From a virus: a stretch of DNA of 64,000 bases. The translations under genes and the position numbers were made by a program. This document shows positions 8,997 to 31,242 of the stretch, piece after piece. Under the pieces are notes generated by a model. That model searched no databases. It was not told the origin of the DNA and saw only the letters and a list, made by a program, of their open reading frames with translations. The DNA lies in the IMG/VR virus record IMGVR_UViG_3300037264_004862, positions 58,825 through 122,824 of that record, one strand, 5' to 3'. The first letter of the stretch is position 1. Every line of letters starts with the position of its first letter.

Positions 8997-9542
8997 ATGA
9001 AATTAAGATTATTATCTGAGGAATCCTCAGATAATCTTTTAGAAGACCCTAGGTGGTTCATGGATACCATTACTCGCCTTGCTATACCAGTAGATTATCA
9101 GCTAGCCAAGGATAGAATCAAACAAGAGGTTGATTCTATTGGCGGGTTTGGTAATGACGATCGTTCTATGAATAATATATTTGAAGCCATTCAGAAATCA
9201 TGGCTTTGTGCTAGAATTAATGTAGAAGACTATCAGCAATATTTCCAAAAACCAGTCGGTGAGTTCCATGCTGATGATGAATTTGGTGGCGGGTTTGGTA
9301 CTAATAAGCGAGTAATAAAAGTCAATGATAAGAGTATCATTGTGACTTTGAGGATGAATTATGGCGATACCGACCGCATTACTGGTGAAGGTACGTTTCC
9401 TAAAGACATTGTCGCCACGTTGCAAAAAACTTATACCGACAATAAGTTAATTATATTACAGGCGCTTGACTCATACCTTAGAGACAATGGAAGTAGCATT
9501 AGAGAGAAATTTGGCTTGAGGATCCCAGTTCACGGTATGTAA
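8997..9542 (+). CDS. FHxDDxF-family protein 1 (LxE leader)
   Basis: 181 residues, first of five tandem paralogues. It begins MKLRLLSE, a short leader ending in LSE, and carries EFHADDEF at about residues 89-96. A later TFPKDIVATL aligns with the WPPE/MPxE segments of its siblings. Function unknown. The leader resembles T4 capsid-targeting leaders that are cut after (L/I)-x-E by the prohead protease, so this may be a protein packaged in the head (inference). First gene of the rightward block; only a weak SD (AGAG) is present. Confidence 0.7.
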   Translation: MKLRLLSEESSDNLLEDPRWFMDTITRLAIPVDYQLAKDRIKQEVDSIGGFGNDDRSMNNIFEAIQKSWLCARINVEDYQQYFQKPVGEFHADDEFGGGFGTNKRVIKVNDKSIIVTLRMNYGDTDRITGEGTFPKDIVATLQKTYTDNKLIILQALDSYLRDNGSSIREKFGLRIPVHGM

Positions 9543-9543
9543 C

Positions 9544-9969
9544 ATGAAACTCACTAAACTATTTTTGGAAGCTACTGATCCTCAACTATTAACACAATGG
9601 TGGGAAGGACTGAAATATATTAGGCACCAAATTTCTAAGAGGTTTAAAGGTTATAGAACCATCATTAAACAATTACAATTTGAAGACCCTGAATTGGTTA
9701 AGAATGCATTTAATAATTTTATGGAAATAACTACTCCATTAATAGTTTATGTGTTATCTGGATCACTTAAAAATTTGCCACAAACAGCGCCTCCAGAATT
9801 AGAATTTCATGTTGATGACCAGTTTTCTAGGGAAAACATGGCTGTTGAGGTAAAGATTTTCCCTGATGGTGTTGAATCTGAACTAGCTATGCCTCAAGAA
9901 ATTAAAGATTACCTAGTTCATATAGTAAACAGACAGAAAGCGTCTTTATACGACGCATTAGATTTATGA
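9544..9969 (+). CDS. FHxDDxF-family protein 2 (LxE-type leader)
   Basis: 141 residues, starting 1 nt after the previous gene. The leader is MKLTKLFLEA. The family motif EFHVDDQFS is at about 87-95, and the C-terminal AMPQEIKDYL segment matches the equivalent part of siblings 4 and 1. Outside these landmarks the paralogues are very divergent. The end overlaps the next gene by 4 nt (ATGA). Function unknown. Confidence 0.7.
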   Translation: MKLTKLFLEATDPQLLTQWWEGLKYIRHQISKRFKGYRTIIKQLQFEDPELVKNAFNNFMEITTPLIVYVLSGSLKNLPQTAPPELEFHVDDQFSRENMAVEVKIFPDGVESELAMPQEIKDYLVHIVNRQKASLYDALDL

Positions 9970-10826
9970 AACTTTCTACTTTATCTGAGGCACTTCATCC
10001 ACGCCTGAAGGCCACTATGGCAGAAATCAATGCTGATTTAATAAAGGCGTTGGTTTCGTCAGGTGTAAAATTTACACCTGACTCAGATGTTGAATTGAAG
10101 TATAGCGCAGGAGGGTTTCCTGCAGGATGGAATGTTGGTACATTAGAAATTGATAGCGCTACTCATACAATATGGGCGAATTTTAATGGACAAGTAGGGG
10201 TAGCTATCGAATATACACTACCAAACCGTTGGTATACACCGGCAGAACTAATTGCTACATCACAACGTAGAGCTAAACGCGAAGTGACATTCAAAGCCAA
10301 GCCAGAAGCAAATCGATTAGTAAGCATGTTAAAAAAATTTGGGCAACCAATATCTGCCTATTTTAGACCACCTAGTAATCCTGCAAAATCAACTTATGAC
10401 GAAGGTTGGTATAAAAGTACAGATGCTCTGTGGCGCGGTCGACCCGAGCTCGGGATGGGGGATGGCATTATTGAATACATTAAAACACATAATCTAACAT
10501 CAGAAGCTATTGAAAAGTTAAAAGATTCATTTTCAATGTCTGTAATGCCCCAGCGTTGGAAGCAGGTTCAAGAGAAAGCTGGAGTAATACTTCCAGAAGA
10601 ACCACAGAATTTAGAATTCCATACAGATGATAGTTTTTCACGTGATGATGTTTTTTTGTTAATTAATAAGGATGTGATATCGCTTACTGATTGGCGTGCA
10701 CAGTTCAAACCCATAACTGTTGTGACTTGGTGGCCACCAGAAATAACAAATGCTTTACGTCAAGTATGGCAAGACGCTTATGATGAATTTCTTACTAGCA
10801 TCGAAAAAGCGAAGAAACAACCATGA
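9966..10826 (+). CDS. FHxDDxF-family protein 3 (LSE|A leader)
   Basis: 286 residues, the longest sibling. The leader MKLSTLSEA is an ideal match to the T4 prohead protease rule L-x-E before Ala. The family motif EFHTDDSFS lies about residues 218-226, followed by VVTWWPPEI, which is shared with sibling 5 (VTWWPPEA). The extra N-terminal 150 residues have no recognised domain. Overlaps its neighbours by 4 nt on both sides, so the array is probably one translationally coupled operon. Confidence 0.7.
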   Translation: MKLSTLSEALHPRLKATMAEINADLIKALVSSGVKFTPDSDVELKYSAGGFPAGWNVGTLEIDSATHTIWANFNGQVGVAIEYTLPNRWYTPAELIATSQRRAKREVTFKAKPEANRLVSMLKKFGQPISAYFRPPSNPAKSTYDEGWYKSTDALWRGRPELGMGDGIIEYIKTHNLTSEAIEKLKDSFSMSVMPQRWKQVQEKAGVILPEEPQNLEFHTDDSFSRDDVFLLINKDVISLTDWRAQFKPITVVTWWPPEITNALRQVWQDAYDEFLTSIEKAKKQP

Positions 10827-11260
10827 AACTTATAAATTTGTCTGAAACATCTAGTAGTCCATCTGAGATGGCGGAAGCACTCAGGTGGATATCGGTGCTT
10901 AAGCCATATATGAGACAAGCGACAGTTGGAAAAGCTAAGAAATATGTCGCGCAATTGAAATATGATATGTCAAGATCATATTTCAATGATCCTATACATG
11001 GTTTAGCATCATCTTGGTATGAAATTATGTTGTTCATCCCTAATGATGTATTAAACCATTTATTACAAAGTCGCGAAATAAGTTTCCATGCTGACGATGA
11101 GTTTGATGACAGCGACCATAATTTCTATTGTATTAGAATTCAACCTAGTCTTTATCCACCTATTAGCACCGATATCCCAATGTCTATGCCTCCATTAGTC
11201 CAGAAATATTTATTACGATCAGCTATAGATTTTAGAGAAGAACTCAAATCGATGATATGA
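10823..11260 (+). CDS. FHxDDxF-family protein 4 (LSE leader)
   Basis: 145 residues. The leader is MKLINLSET. The family motif SFHADDEFD sits near residue 90, then SMPPLVQKYL in the position of the siblings' MPxE/WPPE segment. Overlaps both neighbours by 4 nt. Function unknown. Confidence 0.7.
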   Translation: MKLINLSETSSSPSEMAEALRWISVLKPYMRQATVGKAKKYVAQLKYDMSRSYFNDPIHGLASSWYEIMLFIPNDVLNHLLQSREISFHADDEFDDSDHNFYCIRIQPSLYPPISTDIPMSMPPLVQKYLLRSAIDFREELKSMI

Positions 11261-11862
11261 AGCTTAATTATTTATTTGAAGATCAGTATCGAAAAGGCGA
11301 ACGAAGAGGCGAAGAAACCTTCGGACCTCCAATGAGATTGACTAACTTATTTGAATCTAATTTACATGAAGAAGTTACTGATTTGTTGATTAAATATGAC
11401 ACTTATTTAAGTGTTGAATATCCATCAACTCATTGGCAAGCTAATTATGGAATGCGCCATATTGTAAGCGACATAACACAAGAAATCATATCACATACTT
11501 TACGTCCATCTGGTATGCAATTTCATGAGAAATATCAACAACGAATGGACGAGACAAATCATTTAGTTCTTACGCTTCATAAATGGCGATATGACGGAAA
11601 TAAATTTGGTAATGATTTAGAGGCTATTGGATGCAGTTTTATTGAACCACCATCTGAACCACAATTCCACGTAGATGACCAATTTAGTGAACGTTTCCCT
11701 GAAGGAGAATCTAGTGAATATATTAAAGTTGATGCTAATAGCATCAACAGCAGTAAAGGCCCAGTAACATGGTGGCCACCAGAAGCATTACAAGCATTAT
11801 ATGATTTTCGTATTAGTTTAATCAATAAAGTTAAGCAAGAACTTACTTATAGCTCAAAGTAA
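11257..11862 (+). CDS. FHxDDxF-family protein 5 (doubled leader)
   Basis: 201 residues. It has two leader-like starts: MKLNYLFED at residue 1 and MRLTNLFES at residue 26. Either the leader is duplicated or translation can begin at the second ATG (11332). The family motif QFHVDDQFS is near residue 133 and VTWWPPEA follows, closest to sibling 3. The first start overlaps the upstream stop (ATGA), favouring it. The gene ends 3 nt before the convergent deformylase gene. Confidence 0.7.
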   Translation: MKLNYLFEDQYRKGERRGEETFGPPMRLTNLFESNLHEEVTDLLIKYDTYLSVEYPSTHWQANYGMRHIVSDITQEIISHTLRPSGMQFHEKYQQRMDETNHLVLTLHKWRYDGNKFGNDLEAIGCSFIEPPSEPQFHVDDQFSERFPEGESSEYIKVDANSINSSKGPVTWWPPEALQALYDFRISLINKVKQELTYSSK

Positions 11863-12416: not shown

Positions 12417-12722
12417 ATGTTTAAATGGCTAAAGCGTCTATTAGGGTGTGAATCTTCGTCAAATAATATTCATGTATACCTTCATGTTGATGGTAAATTG
12501 AGAATAGAAAATGAAGCGAGATCCGGAAATACCATTATGGCTAACAAAGGATCTGTCGACCCTAATGCTACCTTTAAAACACCAGATGGAAATAGAGAAC
12601 CAGCTCGAAATTTTGAGGCAGATATCACGCCTGGGCTCTTTGCCGACACACGAGAGACAGAAGCTAGTTTCGGGACTGAAGTTGAATTACCTCCCAAGAG
12701 CGATAAGGGCTCGGGTATTTAG
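12417..12722 (+). CDS. Hypothetical small protein upstream of the actin-like gene
   Basis: 101 residues. A basic, hydrophobic N-terminus (MFKWLKRLLGC) could be a membrane-contact helix or lipid-attachment-like start; the rest is polar and Gly/Pro/Glu-rich. It has an AAGGA site before the ATG, and a CTTAAATA box (12380-12387) about 30 nt upstream may be its promoter. It lies 34 nt before the actin-like gene, so the two may act together. No family recognised. Confidence 0.6.
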   Translation: MFKWLKRLLGCESSSNNIHVYLHVDGKLRIENEARSGNTIMANKGSVDPNATFKTPDGNREPARNFEADITPGLFADTRETEASFGTEVELPPKSDKGSGI

Positions 12723-12756
12723 ATATCTAAGGAACCTATCTTATAGGAGTGGAATT

Positions 12757-13788
12757 ATGAAATGTTTAGGACTTGATATAGGCACAAAGAATATCGTACT
12801 TGCTGATCGGCGTACAGGTAAACTGAAATTCAAAAGGGAAGTTAATGGTTTCGTCGATATTATTAAGGGCGATGGTTTCATTAAACAAATGTTGCTCTCC
12901 CAAGGTATTCCATTTATTGAAAGAGATGATAAATTTACGGCGCTTGGGTGTAAAGCAGAAGATATAGCCTATCACTTTGGTAAAGTTTTACGTCGTCCAA
13001 TGGAGAATGGTGTATTGGCTGTAGGTGAAGAAGAAGCCATGAAGATCATGGCTGTGATTATTAAAAGTTTAATTGGTAAGATGGACGACGATGCTATTAT
13101 TTATTACTGTATTCCGGCCCCGGCTTTAAATGAAACGGTCAATGTACGTTATCACCAGAAAGTCGTCCAAGCCATTTTAGATTCTTATAAATCTTCTGAA
13201 GGGGCTACAATTAAGGCCTACCCAATTAATGAAGCACGTTCTATTGTGATTTCGCAGATACCCGATCGTACGGGGATTGGCATATCTTGGGGTGCAGGCA
13301 TGGTTAATGTCTCATATTGTTTATTCGGCCTACCAATCTATGAATTCTCGTTGGTCGGTTCGGGTGATTGGATTGATATGGAAAGTGCTCGTGTCACCGG
13401 AAATTTAGAAAAAACCGATGGACGCGATAAACCAAAGGCCTTAGTGTCAAAGGCTAAGGAGAAAGTTAATTTAGGCGGCCCACTACCAGAAACCAACCTT
13501 GAGAAGGCTATTTATATTAATTACCAAATTCTAATTGAAAATGTAGCCAAAGGTATTGCTGATGGTTTCCGCCAAAATGAACAGAAAGCGCGCGCCGACA
13601 AGCCAATGCCAATAGTTGTGGCAGGCGGTACTTCGATGCCAGCAGGATTTTTAGATATGTTTAAGAGTGTTTTCGCAATTCAAAAAATGCCATTTGAGAC
13701 TGGCGAAGTTAAACGTGCTGATGAACCATTATATGCTATCGCTGAAGGATGCTTAATTGCTAGTGAATTACATGATGGTAACGTGTAA
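12757..13788 (+). CDS. Actin/ParM-like ATPase
   Basis: 343 residues from ATG 12757, chosen because AGGAGT lies 6 nt upstream and the protein then opens with the phosphate-1 motif LGLDIGTKN. The longer open frame upstream merely overlaps the previous gene. A phosphate-2-like segment (GIGISWGAGMVNVS) and an adenosine motif (VVAGGTSMPAGF) complete an actin/Hsp70/ParM-type nucleotide fold. Relatives form filaments for plasmid or phage DNA positioning or cell shape. The phosphate-2 position where actins have Asp carries Ser, so hydrolysis chemistry may differ. Partner genes for a ParR-type adaptor are not obvious. Confidence 0.7.
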   Translation: MKCLGLDIGTKNIVLADRRTGKLKFKREVNGFVDIIKGDGFIKQMLLSQGIPFIERDDKFTALGCKAEDIAYHFGKVLRRPMENGVLAVGEEEAMKIMAVIIKSLIGKMDDDAIIYYCIPAPALNETVNVRYHQKVVQAILDSYKSSEGATIKAYPINEARSIVISQIPDRTGIGISWGAGMVNVSYCLFGLPIYEFSLVGSGDWIDMESARVTGNLEKTDGRDKPKALVSKAKEKVNLGGPLPETNLEKAIYINYQILIENVAKGIADGFRQNEQKARADKPMPIVVAGGTSMPAGFLDMFKSVFAIQKMPFETGEVKRADEPLYAIAEGCLIASELHDGNV

Positions 13789-13805: not shown

Positions 13806-15761
13806 ATGAAGATGGTAACGCCTAAGCAAGTCATAAAATTACCGCTTATTGGTGTCAAGGACGGAGATCAAGTCCAAGACGAATTTGGTAATATATTCGA
13901 ATTTGATACTGAATTAAAAACTTGGATTTGTAAAGGGGTCAAACAAGAACCATCATTAGTAACAACTGAGCAAGCCGGATTGGTGACACCATCAATTTTT
14001 GAAGAATTATCATTGATTAAGATATTGAAAGGTCGTGGTGTCAGTTTTGATAGTTTTAAGATTGATGCTGGTGACCTTAATCCTTATTTTTATTTCTTTT
14101 ATTCATCAGATAATTTAATTAGATTTTTTCCGGAAGGCCCAAATCAACTAAGGTTAGAAATAGATCGTAATAAACTATTACAAAAATTAACTAGTCAATG
14201 TTGTGTTGGACCTAAAGGCAAACAAGGTCTCCAAGGGCTATTTGGCCATGCTGGTAAACCGGCCAATAATGAAATCTTTCAGTTACCTATAAGTACTACT
14301 AATCGTATATTCAAATTTGATACTGAAGTTGCCACGCCAATAAATACGCCGATATCATTGCGTATCTTTAGTGATACGACTCAGGTGATTGAGTTTTTAA
14401 TTCCAATAAATGCTGGTAGCACAGGCAATGATATTACTATCGTAGTGGTTGAAAATGGTCCGGAAGTTGAAATGTCTTCATTGTTTATTAATTTTGAAGC
14501 ATCAACTAATAGATTAAATGGTTCAATAACATTTACTAGTGGTGCTGACGATATTTCGATTTGGAAATATAAAGCTCGCCAAAAAGGTATTAATGGCGAT
14601 TCTGGTTCTGATGGTCTTCCGTTTTTTGAAATTGTAGAGCAATTTTTTGACGATCCTCTTCTTAGGTCTAATGATGCAATTGTCTCATTACGTAAACCGA
14701 ATACTAGTGATAACATATTATTCATTAAAAAATCGCTATTTAATGAAGTGTGTACTTCAAATTTATTGCCATCAACAACATTACCACGTGGTAAAATAAC
14801 GCAAGCTACATTTACAGGTATTCGTGTGACTTTAAGCCAATGTAAGGACGTTGGTAAGTACAAGTTTGTTCCTGATTTATTTGATGCTCCGCCATTGAAT
14901 TTACCAGCTTGGACGCCAACTCCAGACTGCTGTAATGCTTCATTCTGTAATGTTCGCAATTTTAATTGGTTTGATAAGGTAGATCCACAACTCACATTTA
15001 ATATCGAACAAGAACCATGTCTACCGGAACAATGCTGTCAAGAAGACTTTTTCTGGTGTCCTAATGTGGGTGATAATCCATGTCCAGTAGAAGGTGATAT
15101 TAATCCACCAGTTAAATTCATACGTTTTAGTTCATCTAGTTCTAGTTCATCGGATAATTCTAGTTCATCAAGTTCTACGACGTCAGTACATTCATCTGAA
15201 GGGTCGCCTACGCCGCCTTCACCAACTCCACCGGTAATGTTAGGGACTTCATCGTCTTCAATGTCTTCCCAATCTCAGTCTTCTCAGGCGCCTGATGGAT
15301 TTGTATGTGATCTTCCACAAGTTTCGAGTGTATCGAGCTCATCTGATTCTAGTGCATCCAATTTGAGCTTAGAATCAAGTGTATCTAGTGCGTCAAGTAC
15401 ATCGAGCTCATCTGATTCTAGTGCATCTGGTGCATCTAATTCTAGTGCGTCAAGTGCGTCAAGTGCATCTAATTCTAGTGCGTCAAGTGCGTCAAGTGCA
15501 TCTAATTCTAGTGCGTCAAGTGCGTCAAGTGCATCTAATTCTAGTGCGTCAAGTGCGTCAAGTGCGTCAAGTGCATCTAGTGCATCTAATTCTAGTGCGT
15601 CAAGTGCGTCAAGTGCGTCAAGTGCATCTAATTCTAGTGCGTCAAGTGCATCTAGTGCATCTAATTCTAGTGCGTCAAGTGCGTCAAGTGCATCTAGTGC
15701 ATCTAATTCTAGTGCGTCAAGTGCGTCAAGTTTGAGCTCAGAATCTAGTCAGTCGATATAA
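13806..15761 (+). CDS. Serine-rich-repeat virion or adhesin-like protein
   Basis: 651 residues. The N-terminal part opens with VKDGDQVQDEFGN, typical of phage structural proteins. The middle has short collagen-like stretches (GPKGKQGLQG and GINGDSGSDG), then a Cys-rich zone (about 370-430). A Ser-rich linker with Pro-Thr follows. The last 130 residues are almost only Ser, Ala and Asn in 11-residue units (NSSASSASSAS). No signal peptide or membrane anchor is visible. The composition resembles the heavily O-glycosylated stalks of bacterial serine-rich-repeat adhesins, and the gene is followed directly by a glycosyltransferase island. It may be a displayed fibre or fibre-like surface protein (inference). 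Residue 3 is an alternative Met start. Confidence 0.75.
   Translation: MKMVTPKQVIKLPLIGVKDGDQVQDEFGNIFEFDTELKTWICKGVKQEPSLVTTEQAGLVTPSIFEELSLIKILKGRGVSFDSFKIDAGDLNPYFYFFYSSDNLIRFFPEGPNQLRLEIDRNKLLQKLTSQCCVGPKGKQGLQGLFGHAGKPANNEIFQLPISTTNRIFKFDTEVATPINTPISLRIFSDTTQVIEFLIPINAGSTGNDITIVVVENGPEVEMSSLFINFEASTNRLNGSITFTSGADDISIWKYKARQKGINGDSGSDGLPFFEIVEQFFDDPLLRSNDAIVSLRKPNTSDNILFIKKSLFNEVCTSNLLPSTTLPRGKITQATFTGIRVTLSQCKDVGKYKFVPDLFDAPPLNLPAWTPTPDCCNASFCNVRNFNWFDKVDPQLTFNIEQEPCLPEQCCQEDFFWCPNVGDNPCPVEGDINPPVKFIRFSSSSSSSSDNSSSSSSTTSVHSSEGSPTPPSPTPPVMLGTSSSSMSSQSQSSQAPDGFVCDLPQVSSVSSSSDSSASNLSLESSVSSASSTSSSSDSSASGASNSSASSASSASNSSASSASSASNSSASSASSASNSSASSASSASSASSASNSSASSASSASSASNSSASSASSASNSSASSASSASSASNSSASSASSLSSESSQSI
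15438..15730 (+). repeat. 33-bp tandem repeat array encoding Ser/Ala/Asn units
   Basis: Tandem units of 33 bp (AAT TCT AGT GCG TCA AGT GCG TCA AGT GCA TCT) with insertions or deletions of 9-bp sub-units (TCA AGT GCG), inside the serine-rich gene. Near-identity of the units at DNA level implies recent expansion and likely length variation between relatives. It is a coding microsatellite, not a CRISPR array: there are no spacers. Confidence 0.95.
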
Positions 15762-15763
15762 AT

Positions 15764-16444
15764 ATGCATGGATTTAAAAGTGTGTTTAAAGTCATTGAAG
15801 CTGATGTAAATGCTCGGCGTTCGGATTATTCTATATTGGAAGTTCATAATGTAGCAATTGGTCGAGCCTTCCCAGGATCGATGGATTTTATTGATCAGAA
15901 TATATCAATAACAGTAGGTCCAATTAATGTGTCGAAGACTGGTTCTGATTCGGCAGATGGTCCAGTTGGTCGTGGACATTATTACCCACAATTAGAAGAT
16001 TTTATAATAACCACTTATTGTGTTGATCCATTAACGCCAGTTAGGACAGATACGTTTAGTGGAGGGTTCTTGTTTATAGCAAGAACTACAGATGCATATA
16101 ATAGGCGTCAAGTGTTTTTTAGAAGTAAGTTCAAATCAGCTTCTATTATTGATAATGTTATTAATAGTTTATGGTTAAAAGAATTAACTAAATTCGCTCC
16201 TGACGGCATAATTGATGTTGATTTAACATCAAGCCTTGATGTCCATTATTATATCAACCGTTATAGTTTCATTTATAATATGGTAGGTAATGTGACGATT
16301 TATTATTCAAATCTTGATGAGAATGGAAAACTCGTAGGATTTAATAGTGATTTTAGTAATGATCTAGTTGGGAGTGGCGGTACCAATTTCGATGATGTAG
16401 CGTCTGATAATAGGTTCAATATTCCTCCTGGTTGTAATAGCTAA
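15764..16444 (+). CDS. Hypothetical protein, probably structural
   Basis: 226 residues, beta-rich with many Asp/Asn/Ser and a glycine-rich tail. No recognised family. It begins 2 nt after the serine-rich gene and is probably its partner (for example a fibre cap, attachment or chaperone), but this rests only on position. A TATAAATA octamer overlaps its start codon. Confidence 0.6.
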   Translation: MHGFKSVFKVIEADVNARRSDYSILEVHNVAIGRAFPGSMDFIDQNISITVGPINVSKTGSDSADGPVGRGHYYPQLEDFIITTYCVDPLTPVRTDTFSGGFLFIARTTDAYNRRQVFFRSKFKSASIIDNVINSLWLKELTKFAPDGIIDVDLTSSLDVHYYINRYSFIYNMVGNVTIYYSNLDENGKLVGFNSDFSNDLVGSGGTNFDDVASDNRFNIPPGCNS

Positions 16445-16451
16445 ATAAGAT

Positions 16452-17762
16452 GTGAAGCTAGCTATTATTGTTGTAAGTCAACTTGATTCTCTGCATCAGC
16501 TTCATAAATATCTTTCAAAATATAAGCTTGCTACTATTGATCAAACTCCTTCAGATCATGACATAGTATTACATCTCAATACACAAGACCAACAGAAGGT
16601 CATTCAATATGCTTCGTTCTTAAAACTTTATAATTATGATATAAGGTCAATTATCATAGATGATACATTAACCGATTATAAATCGATCTTATCACAATTA
16701 GAGTGTTTTAATATAAGCAATATAATTATCGGCAAGGATAGGCTTACAAACGATGCATTTATGCAGTCAGTAGTAAAACAAGTTATGTTTATTGAACCAG
16801 TTACTGAACTTGTGATGCCGGTTTGTAGTTTACATGATATAATGCCACCACAAGGGGAAAATAAGGATATAAGTGACTTTTCGAAGCAACGTCATGGCCG
16901 TCAAGTGCATGAAGGCCATCAGATTGGGAAATATTTGCAGCCTCCTCCAATGTTGTTTAGTCGCGATGGACACAATGTTTGGATGGGTGATATGTATAAA
17001 GGCGAAAGCGCTTTCTTAATTTTAGGGGGCCCGAGTTTTTCTAAAATTGATAAGGCCAAACTAGACCAAGCTGGCGTATTGACTATGGGAGTTAATAATT
17101 CTGCCAAGACATATCGGCCTAATTTATGGATATCGGTGGATGACCCAACTCATTTTATGAAGTCAATATGGTTCGATTCGAAGATTACTAAGTTCGTGCC
17201 GTACTCTCATAGTGAGAAGGCTCTTTTTGATAACGAAACTTGGACAGAAATGGCCATTAAAGTAGGTGATTGTCCTAATGTTTGGTTCTATAAACGCAAT
17301 GAACATTTTATTGCCAAACAATTCTTGTTTGAAGACACTGTGAACTGGGGCAACCATAAGGATCATGGTGGTGGGCGTAGTGTGATGTTAGCAGCTATTC
17401 GTGTTTTGTTCTACCTTGGAATTAGAAACATCTATTTATTAGGTTGTGATTTCAAAATGGATGAAAGTACTAAATATCATTTCGACCAAGATAGAGCGGA
17501 AGGATCTATTAAAGGTAATAATTCAACCTATGAATTGCTAGTTGATAGGTTTACACAACTTAAACCAATATTTGAAATTAATGGTTTAAATATTTATAAT
17601 TGTAATTCTGATTCTGCTTTGAAAGTTTTTCCGTTTGTTGATTTCGAGCAAGCTATTAAAACATCTACTATCAGAATTCCAACTAATTTAAAACAAGAGA
17701 GAACCATTGGGCTTTACGAACGCACTAAAAAAAACAAAAAGAACAAACATGAATCTAAATGA
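16452..17762 (+). CDS. DUF115/MAF-like glycosyltransferase-associated protein
   Basis: 436 residues from a GTG start. Residues about 1-130 form a Rossmann-like domain of unknown type. From about 180 the protein reads as DUF115 (MptE/motility accessory factor) type: SAFLILGGPSFSKID, LTMGVNNSAKTYRPNLWISVDDP, a GGGRSVMLAA helix and IYLLGCDF. MAF proteins glycosylate flagellin Ser/Thr with nonulosonic acids. A similar role on the neighbouring Ser-rich protein is an inference. AAATA lies 4 nt before the GTG and no SD is visible. The C-terminus is very basic and overlaps the next gene by 14 nt. Confidence 0.6.
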   Translation: MKLAIIVVSQLDSLHQLHKYLSKYKLATIDQTPSDHDIVLHLNTQDQQKVIQYASFLKLYNYDIRSIIIDDTLTDYKSILSQLECFNISNIIIGKDRLTNDAFMQSVVKQVMFIEPVTELVMPVCSLHDIMPPQGENKDISDFSKQRHGRQVHEGHQIGKYLQPPPMLFSRDGHNVWMGDMYKGESAFLILGGPSFSKIDKAKLDQAGVLTMGVNNSAKTYRPNLWISVDDPTHFMKSIWFDSKITKFVPYSHSEKALFDNETWTEMAIKVGDCPNVWFYKRNEHFIAKQFLFEDTVNWGNHKDHGGGRSVMLAAIRVLFYLGIRNIYLLGCDFKMDESTKYHFDQDRAEGSIKGNNSTYELLVDRFTQLKPIFEINGLNIYNCNSDSALKVFPFVDFEQAIKTSTIRIPTNLKQERTIGLYERTKKNKKNKHESK

Positions 17763-18471
17763 TATCACTGTGGTTATAGCAATTGATGCTAGGCATCTTG
17801 AAGAATTAAAATATACATGGCCTACTTGGATGAAATTTAAGCCCGAAATGTCAACCCTTAAAAAGATTGTGATTTATGATAAACATCAATTAACTTTCGA
17901 TAAATTAGCAATATTTAATGGTCATGATGTCAGATTTATACCATGGGATATGCCAAATACCGATCAGCGTGAGAAAATGTTGACTTCTTTAGTTAAGATC
18001 CCGGCTACTGAAGTTGATACCAAATGGTATCTTAAAATCGACGTCGATACTATTGCTACCGCGCCGGGACAATGGATTAAAGATGAATGGTTTACTGCCG
18101 ATCCTGTCTATATAGCACATAGTTGGGGATTCAGTAAACCAGCCGATGTTCTCAAGCGTTTAGATGATTGGGGAGATACTATTTCTGAGCTTAGTAAATT
18201 TCCGCGTTTGAATATTACGTATGATTCGAAGATGTCGAGAGTGTTTTCGAAGCGGATTACGTCTTGGTGCTTCTTTGGTCGAACTGATTGGACTCGTAAG
18301 ATTTGGGGCATGTGTAATGGAAAATTGCCAGTTCCATCTCAAGACACATTAATGTATCATTGTGCTACTCGACTAGGCGAGCATACAGTGCGTACAAACA
18401 TGAAGGATCTTGGGTGGGGACATTTTAGGCTGCGCACTTTAAAAGCAATGAACAAGGAATTACTTAAATGA
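17749..18471 (+). CDS. GT-A-fold glycosyltransferase
   Basis: 240 residues from ATG 17749 (14 codons into the open frame; an in-frame GTG-type start further up would overlap the previous gene more). A Rossmann-like start (ITVVIAIDARHLEEL) and KIDVDTIA near residue 105 supply a DxD metal/sugar-nucleotide motif. A hydrophobic core and a late GWGHFR segment are typical of GT-A enzymes. Substrate unknown. Part of the glycosylation island and overlaps the next gene by 4 nt. Confidence 0.65.
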   Translation: MNLNDITVVIAIDARHLEELKYTWPTWMKFKPEMSTLKKIVIYDKHQLTFDKLAIFNGHDVRFIPWDMPNTDQREKMLTSLVKIPATEVDTKWYLKIDVDTIATAPGQWIKDEWFTADPVYIAHSWGFSKPADVLKRLDDWGDTISELSKFPRLNITYDSKMSRVFSKRITSWCFFGRTDWTRKIWGMCNGKLPVPSQDTLMYHCATRLGEHTVRTNMKDLGWGHFRLRTLKAMNKELLK

Positions 18472-19277
18472 GTGCTGGTGTTATTTACTATAATGTAGGT
18501 GAATCATGCGTTGTAAGGTTATTGGTTTCAATTTATAGCCTAAAGCGGCATTATAATGGCCCTATTACTATTATATCTGAAGGTGTAGAATCGGACGCCT
18601 TATGTTCTAAAGTGGCCCAAACAATGAATGTTACACTTAAACATGCAATTTTTGATACCAATGGTCCAAAAAATCATCCGTTTCTAGCTAAAACTAAAAT
18701 CAATCAGGTGGCACCTTATGATTATAATGTTTTCATTGATGCCGATACGTTAGTAGTTGGTAGGATAGATGAATTATTCAATACAGCCCAGTTTACTATC
18801 ACTAGAATGGCAGAATGGTCCACAAATGGCACTAAAATTTCACATAGGATTAAAAATTGGTCAAATATTTGCCCTGACTTAATAGAGCCCGCTTTGAATT
18901 ACAAAAAGGCCATTAATACAGGAATTTTTGCGTTCGTACGAGATGCTACCATATTTAATGAATGGTATGGCCTCACGCTTAAAAACCGTGACACATTCAT
19001 TCCTGATGAAATTAGTTGTCAATTGTTGCTACCTAAACATTCGCATAATTTATTAGATTGTAGATTCAATTGGTCTTGTAAATATGGTCCTGATATAGAT
19101 GATATTCGAATCATTCATTTTCATGGTAGAAAACATTGTAGGCCTGGATTACCATTTAATGCCGACAAATGGGTGAAAGTGTATAATGAAGTTGTGAATC
19201 AGAATCTTGCGGATGTTTGCCAATGGCAGCCAGCTAAAGACAGAATGTTATATAAATATCTTAAATCTAATGAATAA
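18468..19277 (+). CDS. GT8-like glycosyltransferase
   Basis: 269 residues. The N-terminus (GVIYYNVGESCVVRLLVSIYSL) resembles GT8 family enzymes that begin with a strand binding nucleotide-sugar. NVFIDADTLVVG near residue 88 gives the DxD motif. A later AINTGIFAFVRD and IIHFHGRKH are typical GT8 acceptor/metal motifs. It probably transfers a hexose from a nucleotide sugar. Substrate not predictable. Overlaps both neighbours. Confidence 0.75.
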   Translation: MSAGVIYYNVGESCVVRLLVSIYSLKRHYNGPITIISEGVESDALCSKVAQTMNVTLKHAIFDTNGPKNHPFLAKTKINQVAPYDYNVFIDADTLVVGRIDELFNTAQFTITRMAEWSTNGTKISHRIKNWSNICPDLIEPALNYKKAINTGIFAFVRDATIFNEWYGLTLKNRDTFIPDEISCQLLLPKHSHNLLDCRFNWSCKYGPDIDDIRIIHFHGRKHCRPGLPFNADKWVKVYNEVVNQNLADVCQWQPAKDRMLYKYLKSNE

Positions 19278-19908
19278 ACTTTCTATTTGTTTTACTGTTA
19301 AAAATAGAAGTAAAATAGCCAATAGAGAAATATTTCCTCAGACTATCAAATCAATAGTTGAGCATAGCTCTCCTGGCGAACCGATTGAAGTCGTAGTGTC
19401 TGATTGGCTTTCGACTGATTGGCCATTAGTTGAATGGATTTATGATTATGCTAAACATGTACCCATTAAAGTAGTTAATATAGATCAATGTGGATTTAAT
19501 AGAGGCATTGGCTTAAATTTGTCGGCCCAGAACTCATCTGGGAATATACTGTTTTTTAATGATGCTGATATTTTGGTCGATAGAGCTACGCTAGATTTGG
19601 CATTTAGGTGCATTACAGATAAAATAGCCTTCTTCCCACGTGTTAGAAAGACTACATCATATGGCCATCTTATTGTGAGAGAAGATAAACGTTGGCTTAG
19701 AGGATTTGGAGTGGCAATTGTATTGCGTGAATGGTGGGAACGAGCAGGATTATATAAGAGTTTCTGGTATACAGCTGATAATTGGGGCGGCGAAGACAAC
19801 CAATTTCATGATGATATAAAGACCCTTAATATAAAAATTGAACGTCCTAAAATGGATAATTTGGTCCATCAATGGCATCCACGGAAAGTAATTTATGAAC
19901 AGCTTTGA
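19270..19908 (+). CDS. GT2-like glycosyltransferase
   Basis: 212 residues from ATG 19270, which overlaps the previous stop. It opens like a GT2 enzyme (LSICFTVKNRSKIA), has ILFFNDADILVD near residue 90 as DxD-type motif, and WGGEDNQFHDD near residue 175, matching the ED catalytic-base region of chondroitin-type and galactosyltransferase-like GT2 enzymes. Overlaps the next gene by 14 nt. Confidence 0.75.
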   Translation: MNKLSICFTVKNRSKIANREIFPQTIKSIVEHSSPGEPIEVVVSDWLSTDWPLVEWIYDYAKHVPIKVVNIDQCGFNRGIGLNLSAQNSSGNILFFNDADILVDRATLDLAFRCITDKIAFFPRVRKTTSYGHLIVREDKRWLRGFGVAIVLREWWERAGLYKSFWYTADNWGGEDNQFHDDIKTLNIKIERPKMDNLVHQWHPRKVIYEQL

Positions 19909-20611
19909 AATTTGTATACAGCAATATTCGTTCACAAAGCGTTGTTGGTGGCAATTAAGCAGTTTAGCTCAACAAATCAATAAGACTAATATTTTGTATA
20001 AACTCAACATTCATAAAAATGACCCATTTTACAAACTAAATAAGCATTTAATTAGTACGTTTCAGAGTCTTGTAAATTTGAAGGTCAAGATTTGGGATGA
20101 TGAACGATTTTTTAAACGTGGTGATGTGCGTAATTTAGACTTAAAAGAAGCGACTAAACAGTGGATTATTTATGCAGATGCAGATGTGGTATTTCATCCG
20201 ACATTCTTCAGTATGATTAATACGATATCTCTAAAGATTGATAAAATGAACGTTATTTCACGATTTAATACTTCTATTGATGATGGTTATAGTTTAGTAG
20301 ATTCTCAACGCTATGAGGGCCAACCTATTAAAAAAGTCGTTGATAGGATAACAAAATATCCATTGCGACAAAGTTGTTCTATAGGGGCTGGTTATTTTCA
20401 GTTAGTTAATGTCAATTTTATTAGAAGTAAAGGTTTTAATTATAGTGAGCGGTCAGATAGTGCATTGAATTCTAAGCGCGGACCGTCATACCGATCGGAT
20501 CGACATCTTAGATCACTTATGGGATTGAACAAAATAGAAATAGCGCCTCTTTACCATATAAATCATTATCGTCTAAAAGATCATAAAGATGTAAGGTTGG
20601 CATGCCAATGA
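19895..20611 (+). CDS. GT-A-fold glycosyltransferase
   Basis: 238 residues. WIIYADADVVFHP near residue 90 is a DxD motif in the usual strand-loop context. A later SIGAGYFQLVN and a basic RSDRHLRS segment could form the acceptor site. The N-terminal region (SFTKRCWWQLSSLAQQ) is like enzymes that scan an aglycone rather than a classical GT2 start. Donor and acceptor unknown. The end overlaps the methyltransferase gene. Confidence 0.65.
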   Translation: MNSFEICIQQYSFTKRCWWQLSSLAQQINKTNILYKLNIHKNDPFYKLNKHLISTFQSLVNLKVKIWDDERFFKRGDVRNLDLKEATKQWIIYADADVVFHPTFFSMINTISLKIDKMNVISRFNTSIDDGYSLVDSQRYEGQPIKKVVDRITKYPLRQSCSIGAGYFQLVNVNFIRSKGFNYSERSDSALNSKRGPSYRSDRHLRSLMGLNKIEIAPLYHINHYRLKDHKDVRLACQ

Positions 20612-21168
20612 ATTATTTCAAAAAAGTGGTACAATCCAATGTTCCTAACGGATTTAGACGTAAGGTTCTTATTGATGGTGGATTTTATATTGGACAATAT
20701 ACTGAAGCCTACCTAAGCAAGAATCCTGGATTTGAAGTATGGGCTTTTGATCCAATTAAAATAGATTCACAATTTCTGAGTCGCGTACATTTTATTAATC
20801 AAGCAATATGGATAAAAGATGAGATAAAATCTTTCTATTTAAGCCACCGTGCAGATGCTGCATCATTAATAGACACTAGAGCAGTAGATATCGGTCGTAG
20901 TATCAAAGTCGACTGCGTTGATTTCAGTTATTGGTTAAAACAGAATTTTACTAAAGATGATTATATTCATCTTAAGCTTGATATAGAGGGTGCTGAATAT
21001 CAAGTATTACAGAAAATGATCGATGATGGGTCAATTGATTTAATTAGTGAATTGGTGTGCGAATGGCACATTAAAATTAGCCGCCAGCCCAATCAAGAAT
21101 TACATAAATCATTGAAGCAACAATTGTTATCATGCAACAATATAAGATTATTAAAGGATTGGAGATGA
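20602..21168 (+). CDS. FkbM-family methyltransferase
   Basis: 188 residues. VLIDGGFYIGQYT near residue 22 is the SAM-binding glycine loop. KLDIEGAEYQVLQKMI near residue 132 is the FkbM hallmark. FkbM enzymes O-methylate sugars and other small acceptors and are frequent in glycan-modification loci. It probably caps or decorates the glycan made by the neighbours (inference). Start either at 20602 (with AAGGT upstream) or at 20608, which overlaps the preceding stop. Confidence 0.85.
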   Translation: MPMNYFKKVVQSNVPNGFRRKVLIDGGFYIGQYTEAYLSKNPGFEVWAFDPIKIDSQFLSRVHFINQAIWIKDEIKSFYLSHRADAASLIDTRAVDIGRSIKVDCVDFSYWLKQNFTKDDYIHLKLDIEGAEYQVLQKMIDDGSIDLISELVCEWHIKISRQPNQELHKSLKQQLLSCNNIRLLKDWR

Positions 21169-21227
21169 AGTTTTCAAAGGACTGGCATAGGAGACATAAA
21201 AACCAAGTTTTTATTAGGAAAATATGA
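21165..21227 (+). CDS. 20-codon bridging mini-ORF
   Basis: Starts MKFSKDWH and is strongly basic. Its ATG overlaps the FkbM stop (ATGA), and its TGA overlaps the start of the next glycosyltransferase (ATATGA). It therefore fills the gap exactly and could carry ribosomes from one gene to the next. Whether the peptide itself matters is unknown. Confidence 0.35.
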   Translation: MKFSKDWHRRHKNQVFIRKI

Positions 21228-21964
21228 AAACTTTAATATTTCTGTGTGGTTATGATGATTTTTATTTTAAATTGGCCAATATGGCCGCTCACACCATAAG
21301 GTTATCAGGTTATACCCAAGATATTGTTATCTTTACTATTGATGATCGCAAATCGAATTATGCAATATGTCTTAATTTGGCCACCCACTCTGAGTCTAAT
21401 CTAATTATTACACCCAAACAAGGCGCATTCTTCCATGCTAAATTATGTGAACCGTTTGGTCATTCGAAGTATAAGAAACAGTATGATTATTTCATGATCA
21501 AAACACTACCTGGGTCCATTATTAAGAAAGAAGATTATGATTTTATTCTTTATATGGATTCTGATATGTTGGTACATTCACCATTGGACAACATTTTTGC
21601 GTATAAAACTATCGTCTCTGATTATAATAGTAAGAATGCCTTTAGAGACATTAAAGGACTTACGAAGCACCTTTTACCAGAAGAGGTTATCGTAGCAAAG
21701 AATTTAACTGGAATCGGAGGAGGTGCTTTTGGTGTACCATCAAGTCATTATAGGTTTTATGATGATTATAGAAAAATTTATCTCCAATATATTAATGAAA
21801 TTCCGCATGATCAGCCTGCACTGACGATGACTATGATTAGGTATTACGGTGATTACAAAGTAGAGAAGCTCCCTAATCGTGCATATTGGATTCATTATTG
21901 GGGGTATCGTAAGGAACAGATGGTTACTGAGTATAATAAGACATACGCTGGTCGTAATCTATGA
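21224..21964 (+). CDS. GT8-like glycosyltransferase
   Basis: 246 residues with an AGGAAA ribosome site. ILYMDSDMLVHSPLDNIF near residue 107 gives the DxD motif and its GT8-like context. GIGGGAFGVP and a late AYWIHYWG, with His in the usual metal-ligand region, fit the fold. Last gene of the island. Its end overlaps sbcD by 4 nt, so glycan and DNA-repair genes share a transcript. Confidence 0.75.
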   Translation: MKTLIFLCGYDDFYFKLANMAAHTIRLSGYTQDIVIFTIDDRKSNYAICLNLATHSESNLIITPKQGAFFHAKLCEPFGHSKYKKQYDYFMIKTLPGSIIKKEDYDFILYMDSDMLVHSPLDNIFAYKTIVSDYNSKNAFRDIKGLTKHLLPEEVIVAKNLTGIGGGAFGVPSSHYRFYDDYRKIYLQYINEIPHDQPALTMTMIRYYGDYKVEKLPNRAYWIHYWGYRKEQMVTEYNKTYAGRNL

Positions 21965-23055
21965 AAATTTTAATAACTAGTGATGTGCATTTTGGCGTGC
22001 CAGGAAAACTGGAGCATTCTATATGGGCAGTTAAAGTAATGAGAGAGTATGCCCATCATAATAATATAGAAGTAATTTTGGTTCTAGGCGATTTGTTTCA
22101 TGATAGGAGTAGTTTAAATATTCAAGTTCTTACTAAAGCCTATGACTTCTTTGATGAAACTGATAAGAGTTATAACCAGGAGTGGCTGGCTTTTCCTGGC
22201 AACCACGACTTGTACCTCAAAAATTCATGGAAAGTAAATTCAGTACGACCTCTTAATCGTTTAGTGACTATAATCGAAGATATTAAGGCTATTAATATTG
22301 GGAGTCGTAGGTTTTGGATTCTTCCATTTGTCCATTATGAGTCTGCTTATATGCAGGTAGTTCGTGCAATTGAAAAGAAAGCATCTCCAGAAGATATTTT
22401 ATTAACTCATATTGGAGTCCATGGAGCTACGTTGAATGAGTGTTTCTTATTAAAAAATTGGAGCTTAGTGGACTTCTCGGGCACTATTTTCAGGCGTGTA
22501 TATTCTGGTCATTTTCATTGCATGCAGCAGGTTGGCGATAAAACTTGGTATCCGGGCAGTCCGATCCCATTCAGGTTTGATGAAGGACAGGTAGAACATG
22601 GATTCTTGGAATTTGATACTGAATCTTGTGAACATAAATTCATAAAGACCTTTGAAGCTGGGAAGTTATTGCTTCCAAATGAAATTCCAGCACCGGATTT
22701 TATAACCTGTATGGATACTTCGGCCGATCAAATCGATACAACTAACCGGAACGTACGCGTGGTTTTATCTCGAGATTATACCAATAATGAACTGATGGGC
22801 CTGAGGCAGATGCTGACTGATAAGGGTGCATTATCGGTGAAGTGGCAGAAAATGGCACAGGCCGAAGACAAAGACATGCAAGCCTCGACTGCATCCAATA
22901 TGGGCGATGGACATACTTTATTTCAAAATTGGTTGGATCACGATAAACCCGAGCACTTCGATAAAGGTTCTCTAGCATCACTAAATAAACTAGTGATAGA
23001 AGAAGGTATGGAGAGACTTTCTAGTACCGAGGAACCAGATGCCGAACCCGCTTAA
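21961..23055 (+). CDS. sbcD-like: SbcD/Mre11-like nuclease (T4 gp47-like)
   Basis: 364 residues of the calcineurin-like phosphoesterase fold. The metal-binding motifs appear in order: SDVHFG at 7-12, LGDLFHDR near 42, FPGNHDL near 78, LLTHIGVHG near 154 and YSGHFH near 181. With SbcC it processes DNA ends and hairpins. T4 gp46/gp47 are needed for recombination-dependent replication and host DNA breakdown. The C-terminal 110 residues are a less conserved cap/SbcC-binding region. Overlaps sbcC by 17 nt. Confidence 0.93.
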   Translation: MKILITSDVHFGVPGKLEHSIWAVKVMREYAHHNNIEVILVLGDLFHDRSSLNIQVLTKAYDFFDETDKSYNQEWLAFPGNHDLYLKNSWKVNSVRPLNRLVTIIEDIKAINIGSRRFWILPFVHYESAYMQVVRAIEKKASPEDILLTHIGVHGATLNECFLLKNWSLVDFSGTIFRRVYSGHFHCMQQVGDKTWYPGSPIPFRFDEGQVEHGFLEFDTESCEHKFIKTFEAGKLLLPNEIPAPDFITCMDTSADQIDTTNRNVRVVLSRDYTNNELMGLRQMLTDKGALSVKWQKMAQAEDKDMQASTASNMGDGHTLFQNWLDHDKPEHFDKGSLASLNKLVIEEGMERLSSTEEPDAEPA

Positions 23056-25186
23056 AATCAGCAAGTTAGCCTGGGCTAACTTCATGAGTTATGGCGACTA
23101 TGAAACGTTGCTTGAATTAGACTCTCTAGGACCAGCCTTAATAGTCGGCCAAAAGGAGGGCCGCAAGGAGGAATCAAATGGTGTGGGTAAGACCACCATT
23201 ACTACGGCAATAATTTGGTGTCTATTTGGTCGTACTCCTAGAAAAGCTGCCCCGGGTGATAAAGTTATAAACTTTTATACTAAGGGTCAATGCTATGTCA
23301 GAATTACTACTGCTGATGGTTGGGTCATCACTAGAACACGTGGTATTAATGGGCATGACGACTTGTTGGTTCATAAAGATGGTGAAGACATAACGCTGTC
23401 CACAAACAAGAATGCCCAAACGCTGTTGAAAAAACTCTTTAATCTAGATTACGACATATTCGTGGCTAGTATCTTCTTCGGTCAGCGTACTGAACCATTT
23501 TTAACGATGAGCGATCAGAAGCGCAAGGCCGCTCTTGAACGCCTTTTGGGCCTGAATCGTCTTAATGTCTGGGGCGATGTAGCTAGAGAATATAAGACAA
23601 CTGCTGAGCTAGAGCAACAGAAGATTAAAGCTTTGTCAGAAGTTCGTGTGATTGATATCACTAATACTAAAGAACAAATTCATCTTACGCATAAGCAGGC
23701 TGATGAATTCGAAATAAGTCGTGCTACTCTCGTGAAGACTCTAAGAACAGAAATATTAGAAGTGGCTACCAAACTCAAGCCGTTGATGATGGTTAATATT
23801 AGTGAACTGCAATCTAAATATAATCAGCAGGAGTCAAAGCGGAAGAATTTGAGCGACAAAAAGTTACAGCTAGACCACGCTATTGCAACCAATAAACAAT
23901 TGAGTACCGAAGTTATAAATCTTGAGAATATTGGAAACCAGCAGAAACTACGTCTGGCGTCTTTAAGTGATATTGATGTCGATCTCTTGAAGAAGCAACA
24001 TAAGCAAGCCGATATAGACGAGCAAACCAAAATAAGTCACCAAAATATAATTAATGGTTTAATATTGAGCCAGCACAAAATTGAACAGAAAATCCAGCAA
24101 CTCTTCAGCGATCTTAAAGATTGGAATGGTAAAACAGGAACTAGTTGTCCATCATGTAAACAGCTTATTTCCCCTGAACATGCAGAAGCTATATGCAAAC
24201 CTTATAGCATTCAAGCTAAGGAATTAGGTAAAGAGCTCTTACAAATTAAAGGGCGCACTAAGGAACACCAACAGCAGATGGATGCTATTGTGATTAGTCG
24301 TCCTATAATTTCAGTTGCTGCTGCAATGCGTGATACTGAAGAACGTCGTGCGATAAATGAGAATTTGCAGAATCTTAGAGCTCAGGTTGACGATATCTTC
24401 AAGCGTATGGTAAAATTACGAGATTTGAATATAAAACTTAGTGCAGATATTGAGCAGACAATCACTGATCTTTCTAAATCCGACGTTTCGACTCAACTCG
24501 AGACAGCTAAGCAACAAATGGCTTTGAGAGATCAGTTGAAAATTAAACTAGGCTTCTTGGATTCTAGATTGAAAGAAGAGAAAATCCGTGATAACTCTTA
24601 TAATGCTATGGTGAAGACGTTTGAAGTCGAATTAGATAGAGCAGAAATAGACCTTAGCCAACACTTAACCAAAATTGCGGAACTTGATGACAAGATTAAA
24701 TCGTACGATTATATTAGGCACAGTTACCATGACCGGAACAAGATCAAGATGTTCATTCTAACTGGTTTGATTCCGTATCTCAATGCACGTATTGAGTATT
24801 ATTTGAATGCATTTGAATGTGATCTAACGCTTAAATTTACTTCTACGCTCTCCGTAGAAACTTCTAGGTGGGATTATGACTTGCATTCTGGCGGTCAACA
24901 GAAACGTATTGATTTGGCAATAATGTTCGCTCTTTATGATCTATATATTTCAATGTATGGTCAGCAATGTAATGTGATGGTTCTCGATGAGGTCGATGGC
25001 GCTCTAGATCCATATGGTGTGCGGATGTTTGTGGATATCATTAACAACGACTTCGCCGGGGAGCGCCCTGATAAACCAAGTACTATATTAATCATAAGCC
25101 ACAAGAATGACATGGTAGATCAGTTTGCTACCCAAATATTAGTATCCCAGGATGCTGATGATTTCTCCCATATTCTTAAGGGATAG
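23039..25186 (+). CDS. sbcC-like: SbcC/Rad50-like ATPase (T4 gp46-like)
   Basis: 715 residues. Walker A is GVGKTT at 48-53 after an unusually charged loop. The long central coiled coil carries the zinc hook CPSCK at 370-374. The ABC signature HSGGQQKR is near 617 and Walker B VMVLDEVDGALDP near 646-658. ATP-driven partner of the SbcD nuclease; the hook dimerises two molecules. Shorter than bacterial SbcC because of shorter coils, as usual for phage gp46. Confidence 0.95.
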   Translation: MPNPLKISKLAWANFMSYGDYETLLELDSLGPALIVGQKEGRKEESNGVGKTTITTAIIWCLFGRTPRKAAPGDKVINFYTKGQCYVRITTADGWVITRTRGINGHDDLLVHKDGEDITLSTNKNAQTLLKKLFNLDYDIFVASIFFGQRTEPFLTMSDQKRKAALERLLGLNRLNVWGDVAREYKTTAELEQQKIKALSEVRVIDITNTKEQIHLTHKQADEFEISRATLVKTLRTEILEVATKLKPLMMVNISELQSKYNQQESKRKNLSDKKLQLDHAIATNKQLSTEVINLENIGNQQKLRLASLSDIDVDLLKKQHKQADIDEQTKISHQNIINGLILSQHKIEQKIQQLFSDLKDWNGKTGTSCPSCKQLISPEHAEAICKPYSIQAKELGKELLQIKGRTKEHQQQMDAIVISRPIISVAAAMRDTEERRAINENLQNLRAQVDDIFKRMVKLRDLNIKLSADIEQTITDLSKSDVSTQLETAKQQMALRDQLKIKLGFLDSRLKEEKIRDNSYNAMVKTFEVELDRAEIDLSQHLTKIAELDDKIKSYDYIRHSYHDRNKIKMFILTGLIPYLNARIEYYLNAFECDLTLKFTSTLSVETSRWDYDLHSGGQQKRIDLAIMFALYDLYISMYGQQCNVMVLDEVDGALDPYGVRMFVDIINNDFAGERPDKPSTILIISHKNDMVDQFATQILVSQDADDFSHILKG

Positions 25187-31172: not shown

Positions 31173-31242
31173 ATGAATTAGAATTTGATATTATTAATCA
31201 TAGAATTGATAAATAATTTTGGTTCGGTACCAAGGAGGAATT

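Follow-up and report, generated by a model that had tools for sequence, protein, structure and literature searches.

The stretch of DNA analysed here (64,000 nucleotides, hereafter the window) corresponds to positions 58825-122824 of an IMG/VR virus record of 122,824 bases (IMGVR_UViG_3300037264_004862) and harbors a gene for a serine-rich (Ser-rich) protein followed by a run of genes coding for glycosyltransferases (GTs), which we propose to act on that protein. All the genes of the run lie on the + strand, in the order Ser-rich gene, a gene for a protein of 226 residues, DUF115, GTa, GTb, GTc, GTd, FkbM, GTe, Mre11, and Rad50; from the Ser-rich gene to Rad50, neighboring genes either overlap or are separated by gaps of less than 60 bp (Table 1). 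A first-pass annotation had placed the enzyme genes directly downstream of the repeat gene, in the same direction and with overlaps; direction and packing are as it described, whereas the gene for the 226-residue protein intervenes before DUF115. The starts of GTa and GTc given in Table 1 were set by comparison with a related contig (L010) and differ from those of the longest open reading frames (ORFs).

The window also contains contractile-tail genes (the sheath, 40884-43727, and the baseplate hub and wedge proteins), together with DNA polymerase pieces and Mre11/Rad50; the phage was therefore assigned to the myoviruses.

The Ser-rich protein and the enzymes encoded beside it

According to the first-pass annotation, the 651-residue protein ends in more than 100 residues of serine repeats that are nearly identical at the DNA level. 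The ORF bears this out: serine represents 6.5% of residues 1-430 and 120 out of 221 residues (54%) in the region 431-651, whose final part (residues 545-651, 107 amino acids) is the NSSASSAS array. The near identity of the repeats holds if the unit length is allowed to vary, three units being identical 33-bp copies and the other ones consisting of the same 9-bp blocks in differing number. The N-terminal domain (residues 1-430) contains two short Gly-x-y collagen-like stretches; the protein begins with MKMVTPKQVIKLPLIGVK and ends with SSESSQSI. Neither a signal peptide nor a wall anchor is apparent on it, and no hydrophobic 19-mer exceeds 1.3. A predicted structure of the N-terminal domain, obtained with two sequences, was discarded (mean predicted local distance difference test score, pLDDT, of 33).

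The DUF115 protein matches Pfam family PF01973 with an E-value of 4e-4 and 20.6 bits, under the curated cutoff of 34.6; therefore, we refer to it as Maf-like and not as a filed member of PF01973. The label DUF115/MAF-like, which it already carried, is backed by a match to phrog_4603 ("alpha-2,3-sialyltransferase", E 6e-9) and by the search of the PDB with a profile of 29 DUF115 sequences, which retrieved Campylobacter Cst-II (E 0.001); the motifs GPS and LG..xxLxGxDF...Y.F are common to the profile and Cst-II. Moreover, the structure prediction suggested by the first-pass annotation gave an AlphaFold model with a confident catalytic domain (pLDDT 96-98 across most of residues 181-280), whose best natural PDB match in Foldseek is again Cst-II (2x62_A, probability 1.00), with weak scores (E 4.6e-3, template modelling (TM) score 0.28/0.44), and whose matches in BFVD are annotated as MptE-like/DUF115 (E down to 5e-7). 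The family evidence for this protein thus points to Cst-II/Maf. In the sole Maf crystal structure, the central Maf_flag10 domain resembles Cst-II (PMC11339370); the statement that MAF proteins act on Ser/Thr of flagellin agrees with Maf1 of Aeromonas, which works on flagellin in the cytoplasm (PMC4065374).

As for the five further glycosyltransferases that had been announced, family support was obtained for three, i.e., GTb (GT8/glycogenin), GTc (GT2, just above the cutoff), and GTd, which matches GT2-type enzymes; GTa and GTe retrieved no family match, and a conserved DxD is present in both. The assignment of the sugar methyltransferase to the FkbM family was confirmed by PF05050; sugar O-methylation is proposed for this enzyme, which would be accessory and is present in few phages. 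No clear transmembrane segment was found in any island protein.

This last result, in turn, bears on a different target, the host cell surface, which the enzymes might modify for superinfection exclusion or receptor change, with the Ser-rich tail representing an unmodified flexible spacer. Phage glycosyltransferases altering the host serotype are known in general (work cited in PMC12619734), soluble glycosyltransferases can act on lipid-linked sugars, and two phages discussed below (G010 and G032) have the enzymes and no very Ser-rich ORF. However, with no clear transmembrane segment, the run encodes neither a flippase nor a membrane transferase; the family evidence for the DUF115 enzyme leads to Maf/Cst-II, the former being known to modify Ser/Thr of proteins; furthermore, a surface target leaves unexplained the association with Ser-rich ORFs that recurs across unrelated phages. 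We regard it as unlikely.

Phage DNA, the other alternative target named by the first-pass annotation and likewise ranked low here, would imply that the enzymes glycosylate modified bases of the phage genome. Phage glycosyltransferases acting on DNA are well known, and a PurZ-like synthetase in the record hints at an altered base. On the other hand, DNA glucosyltransferase families were absent from the Pfam and PHROG hits of the island proteins, so that none of these was assigned to DNA base glucosylation, and in that part of the record's ORFs which the scan covered, the thymidylate synthase is ThyX (PF02511, E 5e-52), not one of the pyrimidine hydroxymethylase type. Diaminopurine has no hydroxyl for sugar attachment, and for a DNA target one would not expect Maf/Cst-II and GT8 enzymes in linkage with Ser-rich proteins; this makes base glycosylation highly improbable. 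The PurZ-like adenylosuccinate synthetase (NF038379, E 5e-54, under its cutoff) is accompanied in the record by an adenylosuccinate lyase-like gene (window 31219-32364; L005:14301-15704), and a diaminopurine (Z) genome is possible for this phage.

Table 1. Genes of the run, with window coordinates, strand, and basis of the assignment.
Feature	Position	Strand	Basis
Ser-rich fibre-like protein, 651 aa, proposed acceptor	13806..15761	+	ORF, composition, N-terminal homologue with Ser-rich segment in G022
226-aa protein, between Ser-rich gene and DUF115	15764..16444	+	Conserved in L002 and L010
DUF115/Maf_flag10 (PF01973)/Cst-II-like glycosyltransferase, 436 aa; proposed initiating polypeptide O-glycosyltransferase	16452..17762	+	Profiles, AlphaFold/Foldseek
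GTa, predicted glycosyltransferase	17749..18471	+	Invariant DxD D98/D100; GTb fusion in other phages
GTb, GT8/glycogenin-like glycosyltransferase	18468..19277	+	Invariant DxD D91/D93; DUF115 fusion in four loci
GTc, GT2 family glycosyltransferase	19270..19908	+	PF00535 E 4.6e-5
GTd, GT2-like glycosyltransferase, conserved in many core loci	19895..20611	+	Invariant DxD D95/D97
FkbM-family methyltransferase	20602..21168	+	PF05050 E 1.8e-7, TIGR01444 E 4.5e-9
GTe, predicted glycosyltransferase	21224..21964	+	DxD D112/D114; 80% identical in L010
Mre11 and Rad50 homologues; landmark outside the proposed function	21961..25186	+	Syntenic run end in L002, L010, G022

Gene order in relatives and association of the core with Ser-rich ORFs

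The first-pass annotation had made its proposal depend on the co-conservation of the repeat gene and the island, and the two turned out to be conserved together, both in close relatives and, as core enzymes with Ser-rich ORFs, in many unrelated phages. The order Ser-rich gene, DUF115, Mre11, Rad50 is kept in three relatives, namely L002, L010, and G022 (the last one also cited with its locus, L211/G022). The 98-kb contig L010 harbors the full run plus one extra methyltransferase-like gene, and the 54-kb contig L002 a shorter version (Ser-rich gene, 226-residue gene, DUF115, GTa, GTb, Mre11, Rad50); the repeat unit of the latter differs (SLSSQSPQSASS), the Ser-rich composition and the place being unchanged, and this replacement of the unit with retention of the composition fits an acceptor role. 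Both contigs begin inside the repeats, so that the N-terminal part of the protein falls outside them. In G022, a protein homologous to the N-terminal domain (E 2.5e-14) also has a Ser-rich segment of its own, and the genes after it code for a DUF115 protein of divergent sequence, for Mre11, and for Rad50. This homologue was retrieved when the records from which the collected loci derive were searched; probing the viral_contigs set with the N-terminal domain alone did not retrieve any relative. The INPHARED phages yielded nothing that matched the Ser-rich protein and a single distant DUF115 match (28% identity), which came from an uncultured 462-kb phage, with no Ser-rich ORF in the surrounding 24.6 kb.

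The enzyme core, defined as DUF115 plus GTb, mostly with GTa/GTd, has a wider distribution. Relatives of GTb occur in 31 loci, and the DUF115 protein in 29 out of the 33 virus records behind the collected loci, but not in G011 (153 kb) or in three fragments 8-21 kb long. Fusions of DUF115 to GTb occur in L031, L033, L035, and L047; a single open frame covers GTb and GTa in L003, L014, L022, L025-L028, L034, L036, L038, L039, and the bacterial contigs L015-L017. Two clusters of related phages were recognized (G000/G001/G002/G022 and G004/G006/G032), and according to the all-against-all protein comparison, most phage pairs have only 2-5 ORFs in common, which is the number expected from the core alone (common ORFs were counted, not listed). 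Judging from these counts, the core is almost the sole thing common to unrelated phages and, since most pairs have so few ORFs in common, it appears to move between them.

Concerning the hosts, scanning one genome per species (84,980 species) for the DUF115 protein retrieved four contigs, three from Verrucomicrobia metagenome-assembled genomes (MAGs) and one labelled Akkermansia. The protein was present in only 3 out of 388 genomes of the Verrucomicrobia phylum and, therefore, is rare in these bacteria. Judged by eye, L018 looks like a prophage lying beside bacterial genes, and L015-L017 look chromosomal.

The association of the core with very Ser-rich ORFs (at least 24 Ser in 40 residues) was checked in 27 core-bearing records (1.60 Mb read) and in 1.81 Mb of control virus DNA, the latter consisting of 120 random stretches (1.01 Mb) and 40 stretches of larger phages (0.80 Mb). 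Such ORFs were found in 23 out of the 27 core-bearing records, with a total of 49 versus 5 in the control; keeping the longest ORF per place only, the figures became 40 and 0. The five control ORFs may be alternative-frame reads, because the longest-ORF filter removes all of them. The same filter also removes the Ser-rich ORFs of L002 and L010, which start at contig ends and are overlapped by a longer open frame; they were retained because they are syntenic. Within 10 kb on either side of the core, 19 out of 27 records harbor a very Ser-rich ORF versus 2 out of 40 control stretches (Fisher p 1.4e-8, indicative only, as the records are partly related and the controls not host-matched). The Ser-rich ORF lies directly upstream of DUF115 in L003, L024, L031, L035, and L047, and weaker ones occupy the same position in the Verrucomicrobia contigs L016 and L017.

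The open frame upstream of the fused DUF115-GTb gene of L031 (L031:2-5347) spans 1782 residues, 68% of which are serine. Furthermore, several of the Ser-rich proteins belong to virion types: Ser tails terminate the major head and the major tail proteins of L003, the sole phage with both; a Ser-rich ORF of L018 has a head-decoration match, and those of L028 and L040 match baseplate/virion structural families.

On the basis of the computed gene order, family and fold assignments, co-conservation, enzyme fusions, Ser-rich ORF association, and L003 tails, we consider it probable that the run is a phage-encoded cassette for cytoplasmic protein O-glycosylation, whose acceptors would be Ser-rich extensions of the phage's own virion proteins, in this case the 651-residue fibre-like protein. 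That the island may glycosylate this protein, as the first-pass annotation put it, is supported by the co-conservation and the association as the leading hypothesis, glycosylation itself being predicted. In such a scheme, the Ser-rich protein would be made in the host cytoplasm, and the Maf/Cst-II-like DUF115 enzyme would then add the first sugar to Ser, presumably from a host-made activated donor of the CMP (cytidine monophosphate)-nonulosonate type, by family precedent. GTb (GT8) and GTa, both DxD enzymes, may lengthen the glycan, GTc, GTd, and GTe may attach further sugars, and FkbM may methylate it; the product would be built into the virion as a sugar-coated brush, which could shield the particles, prevent the appendage from collapsing, or bind surfaces. 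The genetic linkage, the enzyme fusions, and the assignments to families and folds come from computation, and from these we infer the chemistry, the order of action, and the role of the glycan.

Several results weigh against this proposal. No very Ser-rich ORF, as defined above, was found in G010 and G032, core-bearing records that were read whole, nor in G006 (74 kb, whole) and G008 (61 kb read), and the Ser-rich ORFs of G004, G007, and G009 are distant from the DUF115 gene. No family assigns the Ser-rich protein of the window to the virion, and no further protein of its record has a Ser tail. GTa and GTe are called glycosyltransferases from DxD and context alone, the Cst-II match is weak, and in the hmmsearch alignment no conserved residue lies opposite what we take to be the position of the Cst-II (GT42) catalytic His. 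In addition, the association between the core and Ser-rich ORFs might be due in part to a host group that these phages share. G032, which is related to G004 (where Ser-rich ORFs do occur), carries instead a protein with SGYSGYSGT repeats (L196:10072-11409), a possible alternative acceptor.

The same data might also be read in another way, i.e., the enzymes would glycosylate other proteins, either of the host or of the virion via ordinary Ser/Thr sites, and the Ser-rich proteins would be a separate trait of phages infecting the same host group. The core-positive, Ser-rich-negative G010 and G032 are in favor of this, as are the distances in G004, G007, and G009 and the three Verrucomicrobia MAGs and the Akkermansia-labelled contig, which make a shared host group possible. 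Nevertheless, a Ser-rich gene lies immediately next to DUF115 in several phages that are otherwise unrelated to each other, and the exchange of the repeat unit between L002 and L010 with the composition kept suits an acceptor; we give this possibility a low probability, well into the improbable range.

Other genes of the record

A Volactin-type actin-like protein (PF25216, E 2.5e-56) is encoded directly upstream of the Ser-rich gene, at window 12511-13788. Five tandem co-directional genes at 8997-11862, whose products start with MKL and have a common FHxDDxF-type motif, are likely a paralogous array. The DNA polymerase is split in two ORFs (4256-5698 and 1024-3438, both on the - strand, matching phrog_405 columns 20-439 and 356-1051, respectively), with two small ORFs between the pieces. 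Other sugar genes of the record code for an NAD-dependent epimerase/dehydratase, a GT1-like enzyme, and a double GT2 protein (L005:8303-9235 (-), L005:18051-19031, L006:16-1875 (-)). In the left part of the record, the stretches L004:14200-14900 and 17600-18450, whose ORFs look GC-rich, are perhaps a foreign insert or a chimeric assembly. The promoter scan gave chance level only, and 12 terminator-like sites were found versus 7.8 expected.

Comparison with known glycosylation systems and implications

To our knowledge, the glycosylation of phage virions is documented mainly for mycobacteriophages. In the latter, phage-encoded glycosyltransferases are responsible for glycans, which the capsid and tail tube subunits carry at their C-termini (Freeman et al. 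2023, Cell Host Microbe 31:1216, as reported in PMC12619734 and PMC10568470). The genes described here resemble that system in that the glycosyltransferases are phage-encoded and in that L003 has Ser-rich tails on its major capsid and its major tail protein; they differ in the very long Ser-rich repeats and in the proposed acceptor of the window, a fibre-like protein encoded beside the enzymes. The mycobacteriophage enzyme set, in turn, is presumably different from DUF115/Maf-Cst-II plus GT8 plus GT2.

With the Maf flagellin glycosyltransferases (PF01973; PMC4065374, PMC11339370), the DUF115 protein probably has in common a central Maf_flag10-like domain related to Cst-II. Those systems O-glycosylate, in the cytoplasm, Ser/Thr of a surface protein that forms polymers, and an activity of this kind is proposed here as well. 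In contrast to them, flagellin is absent from the phage set and a C-terminal helical bundle is not apparent, only a few of the phage proteins have an additional alpha/beta domain at the N-terminus, and the enzyme is coupled to GT8/GT2 extension enzymes, with Ser-rich virion proteins as the proposed acceptors. The likeness to the Cst-I/Cst-II sialyltransferases (GT42; phrog_4603) concerns the two motifs and possibly the fold (a weak Foldseek match); the overall identity is about 15%, and the GT42 catalytic His is not evidently conserved in the phage protein.

Gram-positive serine-rich-repeat (SRR) adhesins are served by an accessory Sec system and GtfA/GtfB. The analogy with them drawn by the first-pass annotation stands as far as the layout is concerned, that is, a Ser-rich repeat substrate gene adjoining dedicated glycosyltransferase genes. 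It does not extend to the rest, since no long signal peptide, SecA2/SecY2, or LPXTG anchor is apparent in the phage system, its proteins have no clear transmembrane segments, the enzymes belong to other families (Maf/Cst-II, GT8, GT2), and the proposed substrate would be a virion-type and not a cell-wall protein. The cassette would be like mycobacteriophage virion glycosylation in effect and, signal peptide and anchor aside, like the bacterial SRR systems in layout. In agreement with the first-pass annotation, which knew of no phage system with this full layout, our searches for Ser-rich phage proteins with glycosyltransferases found none in the literature covered, most subscription journals being outside its scope.

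A broader reading, to which we give about an even chance, is that of a mobile "virion mucin" cassette: unrelated tailed phages would have repeatedly acquired the Maf/Cst-II plus GT8 (plus GT2) core and combined it with Ser-rich tails borne by their capsid, tail, baseplate, or fibre proteins, covering their particles with a dense O-glycan brush. If so, a Maf-like enzyme would act outside flagellin, and a common modification of phage particles would have gone unnoticed. If the cassette works as its anatomy suggests, sugar-coated virions would be far commoner, and would depend on enzymes that can be transferred as a set and on repeat proteins that serve as acceptor modules; this would have a bearing on particle shielding, adsorption, and surface adhesion. 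For glycobiology, it would represent a compact O-glycosylation system whose acceptor resembles a simple Ser repeat.

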